This document shows positions 4,522 to 29,165 of a DNA stretch of 36,229 bases, in pieces. Position numbers and translations under genes: made by a program. A model generated the notes under the pieces. That model worked only from the letters and a program-made list of their open reading frames with translations. It made no database searches and was not told where the DNA came from. Position 1 is the stretch's first letter; each line of letters opens with the position of its first letter. This DNA comes from a virus, in IMG/VR virus record IMGVR_UViG_3300025168_000265, positions 1 to 36,229 of that record, one strand, 5' to 3'.

Positions 4522-5223
4522 ATGGCTTTGCCACTACTAAACACACAAACATTTGAGCTTAATGTACCTAGCACAGATGAGAAGATTAAATATAGACCCT
4601 TCTTAGTAAAAGAAGAAAAGATACTTTTACAAGCGCAAGAGGGTGACGATACGGAGATGATTGACGCTTTGATGACGATTATTGAAAACTGTACATTTGG
4701 TAAGATACAACCACATAAGTATCCGTCATTTGATATGGAGTATATCTTTCTAAAGATACGTTCTAAAGCAGTTGGTGAAAAAGTATCGTTAAACCTAACA
4801 TGCCCAGATGATAATGAAACGAAAGTACAGCATACAGTTGATTTATCTAAAGTTGAGGTCGAAGTGGAAGATGGACATACAAACAAGATAGCATTAACTG
4901 ATAATGTAAGTATTGTAATGACATACCCTACAGTAAAAACATTTGCTGGTAGAAATTTGAAGGGACTTAAAGCAGCTGATACTATTGCCATGACTGGACA
5001 ATGTATTCATCAAATTATAGACGGTATTGAAACATATGAAGCAAATGATTTGTCAGAGCAAGAGATATCTGACTTCTTAGAAAATCTGACACAAGCACAG
5101 TTTGCTAAGATACAAAGTTTCTTTGCAACAATGCCTAGATTAAAGCATGTCGTTAGTGTAACTAACCCTAAAACTAAAAAGAAGGGTAAAGTAACACTAG
5201 AAGGTATGCAAAGTTTTTTTTAA
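4522..5223 (+). CDS. 26: Baseplate hub/tail assembly chaperone gp26-like
   Basis: A 233-residue protein of the T4 baseplate gp26-like family. It has an N-terminal beta region ('YRPFLVKEEKILL'), then 'IIENCTFGKIQPHKYPSFDMEYIFLKIR' with only short runs quotable, and a helical C-terminus. A clear ribosome site (AAAGGAG, 8 bases before ATG) precedes it. In T4, gp26 works with gp51 in building the hub. The zero frame ends in AGT TTT TTT TAA, giving a run of eight T immediately before the stop. The -1 frame is open from there to 5411, so this gene probably makes a short product and a frameshifted long one, like the G/GT chaperones of other long-tailed phages. Confidence 0.75.
   Translation: MALPLLNTQTFELNVPSTDEKIKYRPFLVKEEKILLQAQEGDDTEMIDALMTIIENCTFGKIQPHKYPSFDMEYIFLKIRSKAVGEKVSLNLTCPDDNETKVQHTVDLSKVEVEVEDGHTNKIALTDNVSIVMTYPTVKTFAGRNLKGLKAADTIAMTGQCIHQIIDGIETYEANDLSEQEISDFLENLTQAQFAKIQSFFATMPRLKHVVSVTNPKTKKKGKVTLEGMQSFF
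5214..5220 (+). promoter_or_regulatory. Candidate -1 ribosomal frameshift site
   Basis: The heptamer T TTT TTT sits in the X XXY YYZ register of the gp26 frame, directly before the stop TAA at 5221. A -1 slip continues into TTA ATA TGC and a frame open for 63 codons. Confidence 0.65.
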
Positions 5224-9903: not shown

Positions 9904-10257
9904 TTAGTTTTGATTTACGGTCAGCGTACAGAAAGTATGACCACACCACAAAGTATTAGAGTATGACTTGTTATTACCGGTCTGATTAATATAGACAGAT
10001 GAACCATTACTTGTTCTACCATCTACATCTACATTGATTGCATTACTATCACCTATTTGATTTAACGATATGATAAATCCATCCATACTGATTATATCAA
10101 AGTCAATATCATTGTTTTCACCGTCTTGTACTATGTCTAAATTACCACCAGTTGTATCATTATCTATTGTTAAGTCTAAATCGTTAGCCAGTATATCATT
10201 ACTACCACATGAGAATAAACAGTATATTAGAACTATTGCCACTATCCACTTTAACAT
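9904..10257 (-). CDS. Small curlin-repeat secreted protein
   Basis: A 117-residue protein with an N-terminal signal segment (about 1-25), ending either at a lipobox-like 'LFSC' or at a signal peptidase I site 'ILA|ND'. The larger curlin-like protein also begins its mature part with ND after Ala, which favours the second reading. The mature part has three curlin-type repeats with the Q-x-G-x-x-N core: 'IVQDGENNDIDF', 'LNQIGDSNAINV' and 'INQTGNNKSY'. Such repeats build cross-beta amyloid in CsgA/CsgB. It ends with 'LTVNQN', possibly a partial repeat, and has two Cys near the end. It has its own late octamer 5 bases before the ATG. A CsgB-like nucleator role is possible but not shown. Confidence 0.8.
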   Translation of the reverse strand: MLKWIVAIVLIYCLFSCGSNDILANDLDLTIDNDTTGGNLDIVQDGENNDIDFDIISMDGFIISLNQIGDSNAINVDVDGRTSNGSSVYINQTGNNKSYSNTLWCGHTFCTLTVNQN

Positions 10258-10262
10258 ACTAC

Positions 10263-10270
10263 TATTTAGT
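10263..10270 (-). promoter_or_regulatory. Late promoter octamer for the small curlin gene
   Basis: ACTAAATA followed by GTAGT and ATG. The 11 bases TAAATAGTAGT before the ATG are identical to those upstream of gp48. Confidence 0.55.
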
Positions 10271-10703
10271 TACTCCCAACTGTTTTAGAGATAATTGTTT
10301 CTTTCTGCTGTACGTCTTTTTGCTCTTCACCACTCTCATTTTGTACTTGGGTGTTCTCAACGTCTGTGCTATAGGATTCTTTTTTTTCATTTTTCTTCTT
10401 TGTAATCTTTTTCATCTTTTCAATATATCTACGATATACTGCCGCTTCTGCGGTTTTACCCATTTCTTTTGCTCGCTGCTCCATTGCCACAGCAGCTTGT
10501 ATTTTGTGTGCGTGTGATTTACCAGAACCCTCTATTTTCTTTACACTAGCATTAGCATCTTTTACTGTTGCAAATTTGAGACCGTGTATTGTACCTTTTG
10601 GGTTTTCATCTGTGTATAAGTCACTATGTTTCTTACTACCAGCAGGCTGTCCCTTCTTTCTAGGTATTCTAGGTGCCTCTGTAAATTCTTTAAATGACTT
10701 CAT
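10266..10703 (-). CDS. Conserved marine-phage protein with MKSFKEF start
   Basis: A 145-residue basic protein beginning 'MKSFKEFTEAP', an N-terminal pattern I recognise from several marine T4-like phage proteins. A conserved core follows, containing 'GLKFATVKDANASVKKIEGS' and 'HAHKIQAAVAMEQRAKEMGK', then a Lys/Glu-rich tail. No enzyme motif is visible. It overlaps the FecR-domain gene by ATGA, so translation is probably coupled. It is the only gene within the curli-type island that looks like ordinary phage core content, which suggests the island was assembled around it. The function is unknown. Confidence 0.7.
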   Translation of the reverse strand: MKSFKEFTEAPRIPRKKGQPAGSKKHSDLYTDENPKGTIHGLKFATVKDANASVKKIEGSGKSHAHKIQAAVAMEQRAKEMGKTAEAAVYRRYIEKMKKITKKKNEKKESYSTDVENTQVQNESGEEQKDVQQKETIISKTVGSN

Positions 10704-15126: not shown

Positions 15127-16038
15127 TTAATCGTTAACTAACTTGCTAAAGTAGTTCATTGTATCGTCTTCGTCATCATTACTAGGGGGAGTAGCAATTG
15201 GCGCTGACGGTACAGTTTCTTTTACTTGTTCACTTACTTCCTCAACAGCAGCACTTACAGGTGGGATATCAATTTGGTCTGCTGTCTCAGTTTTTCCAGT
15301 ACCATATACAGTTTTTTCAAATTTCGCTTTTAGTTCATCATAAGATTTGAAATTACTTGGTGCTGAAAACTCTACTAATGGTTTTTGCATTTTCCATATC
15401 GCCTCTATATCTTCATCATTCTCTTTTAGTTTAGAGATTGTTTCAAATTCAGATTTGTCATAGTTCCAATAACCATCTACTTTTCTAATTTTTAACTTGA
15501 AGTTAGCACCTTCCCAAAAGTCAAATGGGTTGATTGCTTTCTCATCTTCAAATTCAGGTTTCATTGCTTCAGTAAGTTTATCAAAAATTTTCTTACCAAA
15601 CTTGTATAGAAATACTTTACCTTCATGTTCAGGATGCTTAGGGTCACTCACTACAAGAATATTAGTGAAGTAAGATAACTTTCTCTTACGTTTTCTAGCT
15701 ATCTCTTTGTCAGCGTCTGAGCCTGTGTTCCATAATTTAGTATTTTCTTCACTAACTGGATCTTTTTGTCCTAAAGTTGTTAAAGAGTTTTCAATGTACC
15801 AACCACCTGGTCCCTGAAAAGCATGTGACCATACTCTTGCCCATGGCAGTTCTTCACCTTCTACAGCAGGCAAAAAACGTATAACAGCATAGCCGTTACC
15901 GGACTTATCTAGTTCTGGTTTCCAGAATCTATCGTCTCCTGATGAATTGTTTTGCTGAGTTGGTGCTTGTACTTTTTCTAACTCTTTGGTTAGTTTGTCG
16001 AAGTTACCACGACTTCGTTTTAGATTTGCGAATGACAT
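15127..16038 (-). CDS. 32: Single-stranded DNA-binding protein gp32
   Basis: A 303-residue protein with the T4 gp32 layout: a basic N-terminal region for self-association ('MSFANLKRSRGNFDKLTKEL'), an OB-fold core ('SYFTNILVVSDPKHPEHEGK', 'FLYKFGKKIFDKL', 'DFWEGANFKLKIRKV') and an acidic C-terminal tail (DDEDDTMNYFSKL) that recruits replication partners. It coats single-stranded DNA during replication and recombination. The zinc-finger cysteines of T4 gp32 are absent; the matching region reads 'QKDPVSEENTKLWN', as I recall from cyanophage homologues. AAGGAG precedes the ATG. A long structured leader, an early promoter and a late octamer lie upstream. Confidence 0.95.
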   Translation of the reverse strand: MSFANLKRSRGNFDKLTKELEKVQAPTQQNNSSGDDRFWKPELDKSGNGYAVIRFLPAVEGEELPWARVWSHAFQGPGGWYIENSLTTLGQKDPVSEENTKLWNTGSDADKEIARKRKRKLSYFTNILVVSDPKHPEHEGKVFLYKFGKKIFDKLTEAMKPEFEDEKAINPFDFWEGANFKLKIRKVDGYWNYDKSEFETISKLKENDEDIEAIWKMQKPLVEFSAPSNFKSYDELKAKFEKTVYGTGKTETADQIDIPPVSAAVEEVSEQVKETVPSAPIATPPSNDDEDDTMNYFSKLVND

Positions 16039-16091
16039 ATTTTCTCCTTGTATTCGTTGTATTTGTATTGTACTGTTTAATCGTACACTCC

Positions 16092-16099
16092 TATTTATA
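16092..16099 (-). promoter_or_regulatory. Late promoter octamer within the gp32 leader
   Basis: Perfect TATAAATA, 53 bases before the gp32 ATG. A transcript starting here would lack the structured leader but keep the AAGGAG ribosome site. Confidence 0.5.
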
Positions 16100-16110
16100 A
16101 TAGTAACTAG

Positions 16111-16152
16111 GTGGGACTATGGAATTACCCACAATAACTTAACCGGATTCCA
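16111..16152 (-). promoter_or_regulatory. Possible gp32 translational operator (pseudoknot)
   Basis: On the minus strand TGGAAT (16152-16147) can pair with ATTCCA (16125-16120), and GTGGG (16132-16128) with CCCAC (16115-16111). The pairings interlock as an H-type pseudoknot with loops of 14, 2 and 4 bases. An A-rich, unstructured stretch leads to the ribosome site. T4 gp32 represses its own mRNA through a pseudoknot placed in this way. The 4-base loop across a 6-bp stem is tight, so simple alternative hairpins remain possible. Confidence 0.4.
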
Positions 16153-16322
16153 TCCTATATAAGCTAAACCTTCTCCCTCTTGGTATTTGAGATATTGCCC
16201 TTTGTGTTTTCCACAACTGACCTGGGTACCACCCCTGAGAAGTCAAGTTCGAGCCTCTGGTGAAACCCTCTTCCTTGCACTAGTCAAAAAGAGTAATTAG
16301 TTCTTTTTGCTATTATATCTAT

Positions 16323-28784: not shown

Positions 28785-29165
28785 TTACCTTCCTATATCT
28801 TTTATGTCTTTACGTCCCACCACCATTGATGGTCCTTTGTTGTAAGCAGGTGCAACAGTATATTGCTTGCTTACTTCTAACTTAACGTTAGAAACTGGTT
28901 TGGTGCCCCCGGAGAGATTTGAACTCCCGGCCTGATGATTACAAATCAACTGCTCTTCCAGCTGAGCTACAGGGGCATATCGTTTTAACTTGCCAACTTG
29001 GTCTAAGGGTATAGACACTCTTGGTCGTCTTAAACGTCTGTTAGGGTCAATACCCATAGACTTCAATAACTTGTCTTGTTCTTGTTTTGCCTTGTAAAAA
29101 GATTTAGTTTTAATAACTCTTTTGAACTTACGAGGCGAACTGTTATGTGTATAAATTAATGCCAT
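28785..29165 (-). CDS. Phage ORF interrupted in frame by tRNA-Thr
   Basis: A continuous frame of 126 codons from the ATG at 29165. The first 63 residues form a basic protein ('RRLRRPRVSIPLDQVGKLKR'). The next 25 codons are the sense strand of a tRNA gene, giving 'PVAQLEEQLICNHQAGSSNL'. The end 'VAPAYNKGPSMVVGRKDIKD' resembles a C-terminal motif I recall from a conserved family of small marine phage proteins. So a tRNA appears to have entered the middle of a gene while leaving it readable. Processing of the tRNA would cut this mRNA. It may be a functional chimera, two remnants or a fortuitous frame. Confidence 0.4.
   Translation of the reverse strand: MALIYTHNSSPRKFKRVIKTKSFYKAKQEQDKLLKSMGIDPNRRLRRPRVSIPLDQVGKLKRYAPVAQLEEQLICNHQAGSSNLSGGTKPVSNVKLEVSKQYTVAPAYNKGPSMVVGRKDIKDIGR
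28901..28976 (-). tRNA. tRNA-Thr (anticodon TGT)
   Basis: 76 bases including an encoded CCA. The acceptor GCCCCTG pairs with CGGGGGC with one wobble or mismatch. D arm GCTC/GAGC; anticodon loop TTTGTAA with anticodon TGT (reads ACA); T arm GGGAG-TTCAAAT-CTCTC. One T-T mismatch is seen in the anticodon stem. It lies inside an open reading frame on the same strand. Confidence 0.92.

Follow-up and report, generated by a model that had tools for sequence, protein, structure and literature searches.

In the 36,229-nucleotide stretch of viral DNA analyzed here (the window), gp32 lies on the minus strand, which sets the direction of its leader, from 16322 down to 16039. The order on that strand is a sigma70 promoter, a structured RNA, a T4-type late box, and gp32 (Table 1). 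The early promoter lies ~285–313 nt 5' of the gp32 ATG, and its -35 element overlaps the preceding gene's stop codon; transcription is predicted to start at ~16316, ~278 nt 5' of the ATG. An initial annotation of the interval 16039–16322 had placed a near-consensus promoter about 280 bases before gp32, and such a promoter is present, just outside that interval. The annotation had also described a gene-free leader containing a 120-base stretch of about 48% G+C in an AT-rich genome, and both observations hold. The G+C maximum of the leader is a 120 nt segment (16280–16161) with 48.3% G+C, compared with 35.5% for the whole window, and equally G+C-rich 120 nt stretches make up 1.0% of all those in the window. 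No gene-sized open reading frame (ORF) overlaps the leader: minus-strand frames there do not exceed 38 aa, and plus-strand frames do not exceed 58 aa. The sequence TATAAAT has been named as a T4-type late box (PMC9004378). The segment 16036–16099, which comprises the late box, the unpaired A/C-rich leader, and the AAGGAG element, is conserved before gp32 also in phages that lack the RNA, and the final ~60 nt before gp32 are a candidate site for gp32 autoregulation.

Table 1. Features of the gp32 locus, and a tRNA gene elsewhere in the window
Feature	Position in window	Strand	Remarks
Early sigma70-type promoter, TTGACT-17-TATAAT	16351–16323	minus	11 of 12 positions; TG before -10
manA-like structured RNA	16307–16101	minus	RF01745 positions 1–192; 46.9 bits; E 3.6e-11
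5' hairpin, 8 pairs (helix 1)	16309–16285	minus	At predicted transcript 5' end; alignment and fold
Closing stem P1 (helix 2)	16284–16280 with 16110–16106	minus	Encloses multibranch junction
Covarying hairpin (helix 3)	16268–16251	minus	Covariation and fold
3' hairpin GUGGG...CCCAC (helix 8)	16132–16111	minus	Limits read from sequence
T4-type late promoter box, TATAAATA	16099–16092	minus	Sequence; directly 3' of manA-like RNA
A/C-rich leader, mostly unpaired	16086–16044	minus	Fold of last 51 nt (nested)
gp32 ribosome-binding site, AAGGAG	16049–16044	minus	
gp32 (single-stranded DNA binding protein), 303 aa	15127–16038	minus	ATG at 16038
tRNA-Thr (TGT)	28901–28976	minus	

An Rfam scan in E-value mode matched the leader to the manA model, RF01745. 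The score is below the 55.2 bit gathering score of the family, and a scan of the window at the gathering threshold listed nothing at the gp32 leader. Relatives of the window RNA do exceed the gathering score (Pelagibacter phage Mosig, 64.0; contig L037, 55.9; G051, 55.5). The full manA consensus is present in order, with all 192 model positions matched, and the main manA helices were recovered both in 33 relatives and in the window's own fold. The conserved 3' hairpin of manA, GGUA...UCC, is present as GUGGGUAAUUCCAUAGUCCCAC. The first internal loop differs: the window has AGUGCAAGGAAGAGG...GAACUUGA where the manA consensus has GUGACUGAAUAAACUU...UAAGGUGA, so that the conserved loop of manA is not reproduced. 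The replacement loop, AGUGCAAGGAAGAGG...CGAACUUGA, hardly varies across the 33 aligned relatives, a set that was itself gathered by that motif. Judged from these matches, the window RNA is a divergent relative of manA and not a formal member of the Rfam family. The nearest named phages to the window, HTVC008M and Mosig, belong to the Kyanoviridae, which fits the marine T4-like phage setting of manA. Two other matches in the window scan, to Fusobacteriales-1 (E 9.4) and Afu_190 (E 8.2), were dismissed as chance.

We compared three subtypes: the window type, canonical manA, and "type B", our term for gp32 leaders of the HTVC008M type. Type B leaders (26 distinct copies; for example, L002 4221–4407 and L005 2051–2241) match manA weakly (25.9 bits, E 0.012, for HTVC008M; 31.6 bits, E 0.00023, for L005). 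We treat them as a second, more divergent manA-like RNA whose membership in manA is uncertain. For the window type, at least 133 core-motif matches were found in viral contigs; 112 of these also carried a second motif, and they reduce to 68 distinct copies with a full core. Pattern matches to canonical manA numbered 107, reduced to 88 and then to 59 distinct copies; those to type B numbered 48, reduced to 47 and then to 26. The copies are related sequences, and the counts given below are not independent tests.

The minimum-energy fold of the window RNA has the same layout as manA. Folding energy by itself is no more than mildly unusual: the 284 nt leader has z = -2.06 (matched by 8 of 200 shuffles) and the RNA alone has z = -1.36 (matched by 20 of 200), and the energy of the plus strand of the leader is not unusual (z = 0.26). 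It is because of covariation in relatives that we consider the structure to exceed chance. The 68 distinct window-type copies among the matches listed were thinned at 90% identity to an alignment of 33 relatives, in which we scored a 39-pair structure that had been picked from the same alignment together with the Rfam model. In this alignment, 93.6% of the cells are paired, and changes on both sides occur in 28 of the 39 pairs and in 220 cells. Shuffled alignments gave 18.5 pairs and 60.9 cells changed on both sides, and none of 500 reached the observed values; sliding the structure gave at most 60 such cells and a covariation score of at most 0.129, compared with 0.509 observed. When all helices were searched for in the same 33 rows, those of the manA layout headed the list. 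Against a tree-based null, six pairs had E < 0.05 in the 68 window-type copies among the matches listed, and five of the six are at least 94% Watson-Crick or wobble. The tree-based test found no significant pair in the canonical manA set, we think owing to too high conservation. Within the closing stem, one pair is C-G in the window but A-U in all 32 other sequences, and helix 8 is roughly the best-conserved element among manA subtypes. The Rfam/Infernal search and covariation analysis that the initial annotation had suggested thus bear out its view that the leader holds a structured RNA.

A promoter stands at the 5' end of the RNA in most copies. A sigma70 promoter (at least 10 of 12 positions) lies at a near-fixed distance 5' of the RNA in all 58 scorable canonical copies (one more is cut off), in 22 of the 26 type B copies and, among the matches listed, in 64 of the 68 window-type copies. 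The corresponding frequencies in control stretches were 8/414, 2/204, and 12/487. An intrinsic-terminator-like site lies within ~80 nt 3' of the RNA in 33 of the 41 window-type copies that are not beside gp32 and in none of the 27 that are linked to it, among the matches listed, and the window likewise has none; the control value for the window type was 3 of 177 stretches. In the same subtype, again among the matches listed, a late box lies 3' of the RNA in 25 of the 27 gp32-linked copies versus 4 of the 41 others. (The gp32-linked counts for terminators and late boxes take in nearer genes only and, in two subtypes, are slightly lower than the neighbour counts given below.) Terminators follow 5 of 59 canonical RNAs, compared with 4 of 158 control stretches, and none of the 26 type B RNAs.

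We considered whether the terminators belong to attenuators, but pairing of their 5' arms with the RNA does not exceed pairing with shuffles (0 of 33 at 5% or less, among the matches listed), and this reading is unsupported. Of the 33 copies, only 8 have another promoter 3' of the terminator, among the matches listed. Because there is no terminator at gp32, the RNA there is probably a leader, and as the sequence stands the window RNA probably forms the 5' part of an early gp32 transcript made by read-through. A good sigma70 promoter is also found within 150 nt of gp32 in 31 of 55 gp32 copies that lack the RNA, so the early promoter may belong to gp32, with the RNA as the leader of that gene.

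All 16 named phages searched have one manA match per genome (two genome searches give this count; the first covered 50 of 84 candidate records, and the second used Infernal's stricter filters). The RNA lies 3' of the major capsid gene gp23 in MED4-213, P-HM1, P-RSM4, and S-SSM5, 3' of a gene annotated gp24 in metaG-MbCM1, and 3' of ferredoxin in P-SSM7. It is found between pstS and the small ORFs that precede talC in P-SSM4 and P-SSM3, 5' of talC in P-RSM6, between regA and purL, hsp20, and purM in P-SSM2, and 5' of a gene on the opposite strand in P-TIM68. It precedes gp32 in P-HM2 and HTVC008M, and rubrerythrin and gp32 in Mosig. We found no consistent gene or pathway downstream of the RNA among the annotated phages and the three subtypes compared. 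In each of the three subtypes, gp32 is the most frequent neighbour: canonical copies adjoin gp32 (26 of 59), tRNA genes (12), other genes (19), or a contig end (2); window-type copies, among the matches listed, gp32 (28 of 68), other genes (36), or a contig end (4); and type B copies gp32 (21 of 26) or other genes (5). This linkage to gp32 exceeds random placement, as a cis role would explain.

In the 12 canonical copies with a tRNA neighbour, the tRNA gene lies 11–51 nt 3' of the nominal RNA end. In the cyanophages S-CREM1 and ACG-2014f, manA is flanked by tRNA genes on both sides with gaps of 0–1 nt: S-CREM1 manA occupies 10215–10429, where tRNA-Leu ends at 10213 and tRNA-Asn starts at 10429, and ACG-2014f manA (L086 2022–2232) lies between tRNA-Arg, which ends at 2020, and tRNA-Asn, which starts at 2234. 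No promoter of more than 7 of 12 positions was found upstream of manA in these two genomes. At all these tRNA-adjoining sites a leader that controls translation of the next gene makes no sense, and we infer that tRNA-processing enzymes release manA from these arrays. Another orphan RNA, wcaG (L085 1246–1462), shares the tRNA array of manA in S-CREM1 and may likewise be an RNA that stands alone.

Two phages listed as one species, P-HM1 and P-HM2, differ in where they carry the RNA, and each has an empty site where the other has manA. In P-HM1, 48 nt separate gp32 from the gene annotated "phycoerythrobilin" (pebS for short), and gp23 is separated from the next shared gene (cluster 432) by 321 nt that contain manA. 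In P-HM2, manA lies within the 244 nt between pebS and gp32, and the gap 3' of gp23 is 93 nt. A tree of 71 canonical RNAs (2 of them without a neighbour label) requires at least 19 changes of neighbour class (gp32, tRNA, other); support for the tree is modest, and the starred branches alone force 4–6 changes per class. The position of the late box at gp32 differs between subtypes. It lies upstream of the RNA in 20 of the 26 gp32-linked canonical copies and downstream in none, whereas in the gp32-linked window-type copies it lies downstream in 25 of 27 and upstream in none, among the matches listed. We read the opposite sides of the box in the two subtypes as a sign that the RNA was placed in the gp32 promoter region on at least two separate occasions. 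The early -10 element is fused with the late box TATAAATA in 20 of the 26 canonical gp32-linked copies (for example, L069) and in 0 of 33 others, and the fused element is a possible hybrid early/late promoter. Of 69 gp32 loci with 320 nt or more of upstream sequence, 14 carry the RNA according to the motif search, a figure that may miss divergent copies.

We consider it probable that the RNA at 16307–16101 is a stand-alone manA-like RNA of ~205 nt, made early from a sigma70 promoter and acting in trans, which lies beside different genes in different phages. This reading draws on what comparison of the genomes establishes at the sequence level: the conserved, covarying fold, the 5' promoter, the changing neighbours, and the single match per genome, together with the terminators of most copies of the same subtype away from gp32, the tRNA-flanked copies, and the late box. 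The RNA would be transcribed and stable, and gp32 would only be co-transcribed with it. With slightly less assurance, we favour extending this to the whole manA class, which would be an autonomous, early, trans-acting small RNA carried in a mobile promoter-RNA cassette, one per genome. Such a cassette could land behind gp23, before gp32, by talC, or inside tRNA arrays; its RNA would be freed by its start site, a terminator, or tRNA processing, and would then act on the host in trans. The landing site of the window subtype would be the interval that separates the early gp32 promoter from the late one. Early in infection, host sigma70 polymerase would start at ~16316, make the manA-like RNA, and read on into gp32; late in infection, the TATAAATA promoter would yield gp32 mRNA without the RNA. 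The RNA is predicted to take a closed multibranch form and could act in trans either after cleavage or within the long transcript. Its target may be a host RNA-binding protein or RNP that is sequestered early in infection, but this is a guess with a small chance at best of being correct.

The RNA could instead be a leader that controls early gp32 expression in cis, through a ligand as a riboswitch or through a protein such as gp32 itself, with the other copies controlling their own neighbours. This agrees with the filing of manA in the literature as a 5' UTR cis-regulatory element, with the frequency of gp32 as the downstream gene in each subtype, and with the lack of a terminator between RNA and gp32; the late promoter would also free late gp32 mRNA of the RNA. 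That last arrangement is not general, since late gp32 mRNA would carry the RNA in one subtype and not in the other. The downstream genes share no common pathway, 12 of 59 canonical copies run straight into tRNA genes, no switching platform was found in the terminator arms considered above, and the motif search found no RNA at 55 of 69 gp32 loci. We regard control in cis, the main rival reading, as unlikely. The initial annotation had offered an autoregulatory leader, an unknown riboswitch-like element, or a separate small RNA. Autoregulation is possible at this gp32 locus but does not explain the family; the same is true of riboswitch-like behaviour, and the element is no longer unknown, being a sub-threshold relative of manA. 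The separate small RNA best fits the family data, with their variable neighbours, terminators, and tRNA-flanked copies.

A different role in cis, as a general promoter-proximal element that acts in antitermination (in the manner of HK022 put) or protects the transcript 5' end, would suit the mixed downstream genes, and in almost every copy with a promoter the RNA does begin where the transcript is predicted to start. We nevertheless find this improbable, because most window-type copies away from gp32 meet a terminator at once (33 of 41, among the matches listed), two copies start immediately downstream of a tRNA instead of at a promoter, and the next annotated gene in P-TIM68 is on the opposite strand. 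An element of this kind would, in several phages with the canonical type, also send early transcription into late capsid-region genes. The initial annotation had named a lack of covariation or conservation in relatives, or a decayed coding region, as observations that would count against a structured RNA; none of the three was observed here. The weak folding energy of the window RNA alone and the small ORFs annotated on manA in four cyanophage genomes could be read as signs of coding decay or an accident of composition. The 28 of 39 pairs that show compensatory changes, the Rfam match, and the absence of a long ORF are opposed to this; the covariation refutes it, and we give it practically no weight.

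The window RNA shares with manA (RF01745) the helix layout, the closing stem, the 3' hairpin, and a setting in marine T4-like phages, but it scores below gathering, has a divergent first internal loop, and sits before gp32. The HTVC008M leader has the same place before gp32, a preceding promoter, and a weak manA match, but differs in sequence through most of the RNA. The autoregulatory leader of T4 gene 32 consists of a pseudoknot and an unstructured AU-rich operator. It too is a gp32 leader, and the last ~50 nt before gp32 in the window are mostly unpaired and A-rich; the manA-like RNA, however, is ~200 nt long, has a far more complex structure, and occurs next to many other genes. HK022 put, an antitermination RNA near an early phage promoter, consists of two short stem-loops. 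The manA-like RNA is also a structured RNA near an early promoter, but often meets a terminator directly. The GOLLD and ROOL RNAs, some of which adjoin tRNA genes in phages, are several times longer than the manA-like RNA. They resemble it as stand-alone structured RNAs without an assigned function, some of them by phage tRNA genes, but have no sequence relation to it in Rfam scans. Both are described as large, ornate RNAs of phages and bacteria (PMC12286853).

Since 2010, manA has been a cis-regulatory riboswitch candidate associated with mannose/fructose, nucleotide, ibpA, and photosynthesis genes (PMC2864571), and the S-CREM1 paper lists it as cis-regulatory (PMC9964418). Rfam 14 gives 48 significant base pairs for a manA structure that derives from the ZWD alignment (PMC7779021). 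In the literature searched, manA was not treated as a stand-alone RNA. Our comparison suggests that the window copy represents a distinct manA subtype, and that the evidence across the family favours a stand-alone RNA over the recorded cis role. The mixed neighbours in annotated phages would account for the published gene associations. If the RNA acts in trans, talC, purL, hsp20, and the photosynthesis genes would be the chance neighbours behind those associations, and a hunt for a ligand among mannose, nucleotide, and photosynthesis metabolites would be misdirected. Because P-HM1 and P-HM2 hold the RNA at different places, cis and trans action can be tested at once in this pair. A 2020 survey reported no riboswitches in pelagimyophages by Riboswitch Scanner (PMC7029224); a conserved structured RNA is now placed in these phages.

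A cellular origin was also considered and rejected: an 18-base canonical core occurred in three contigs of genome_contigs, none of which was manA at gathering, and two gammaproteobacterial manA copies reported in PMC2864571 were not recovered in this core search. At L049 131–393, an alphaproteobacterial-type (permuted) tmRNA lies ~2.3 kb 5' of a manA-gp32 pair. Genes annotated "hypothetical protein" lie largely on manA in P-SSM4 (164884–165057; L096), P-HM1 (112705–112881; L365), S-SSM5 (116417–116623; L371), and P-HM2 (4849–4953 and 4925–5023; L367), and these small ORFs in four cyanophage genomes are probably not real genes.
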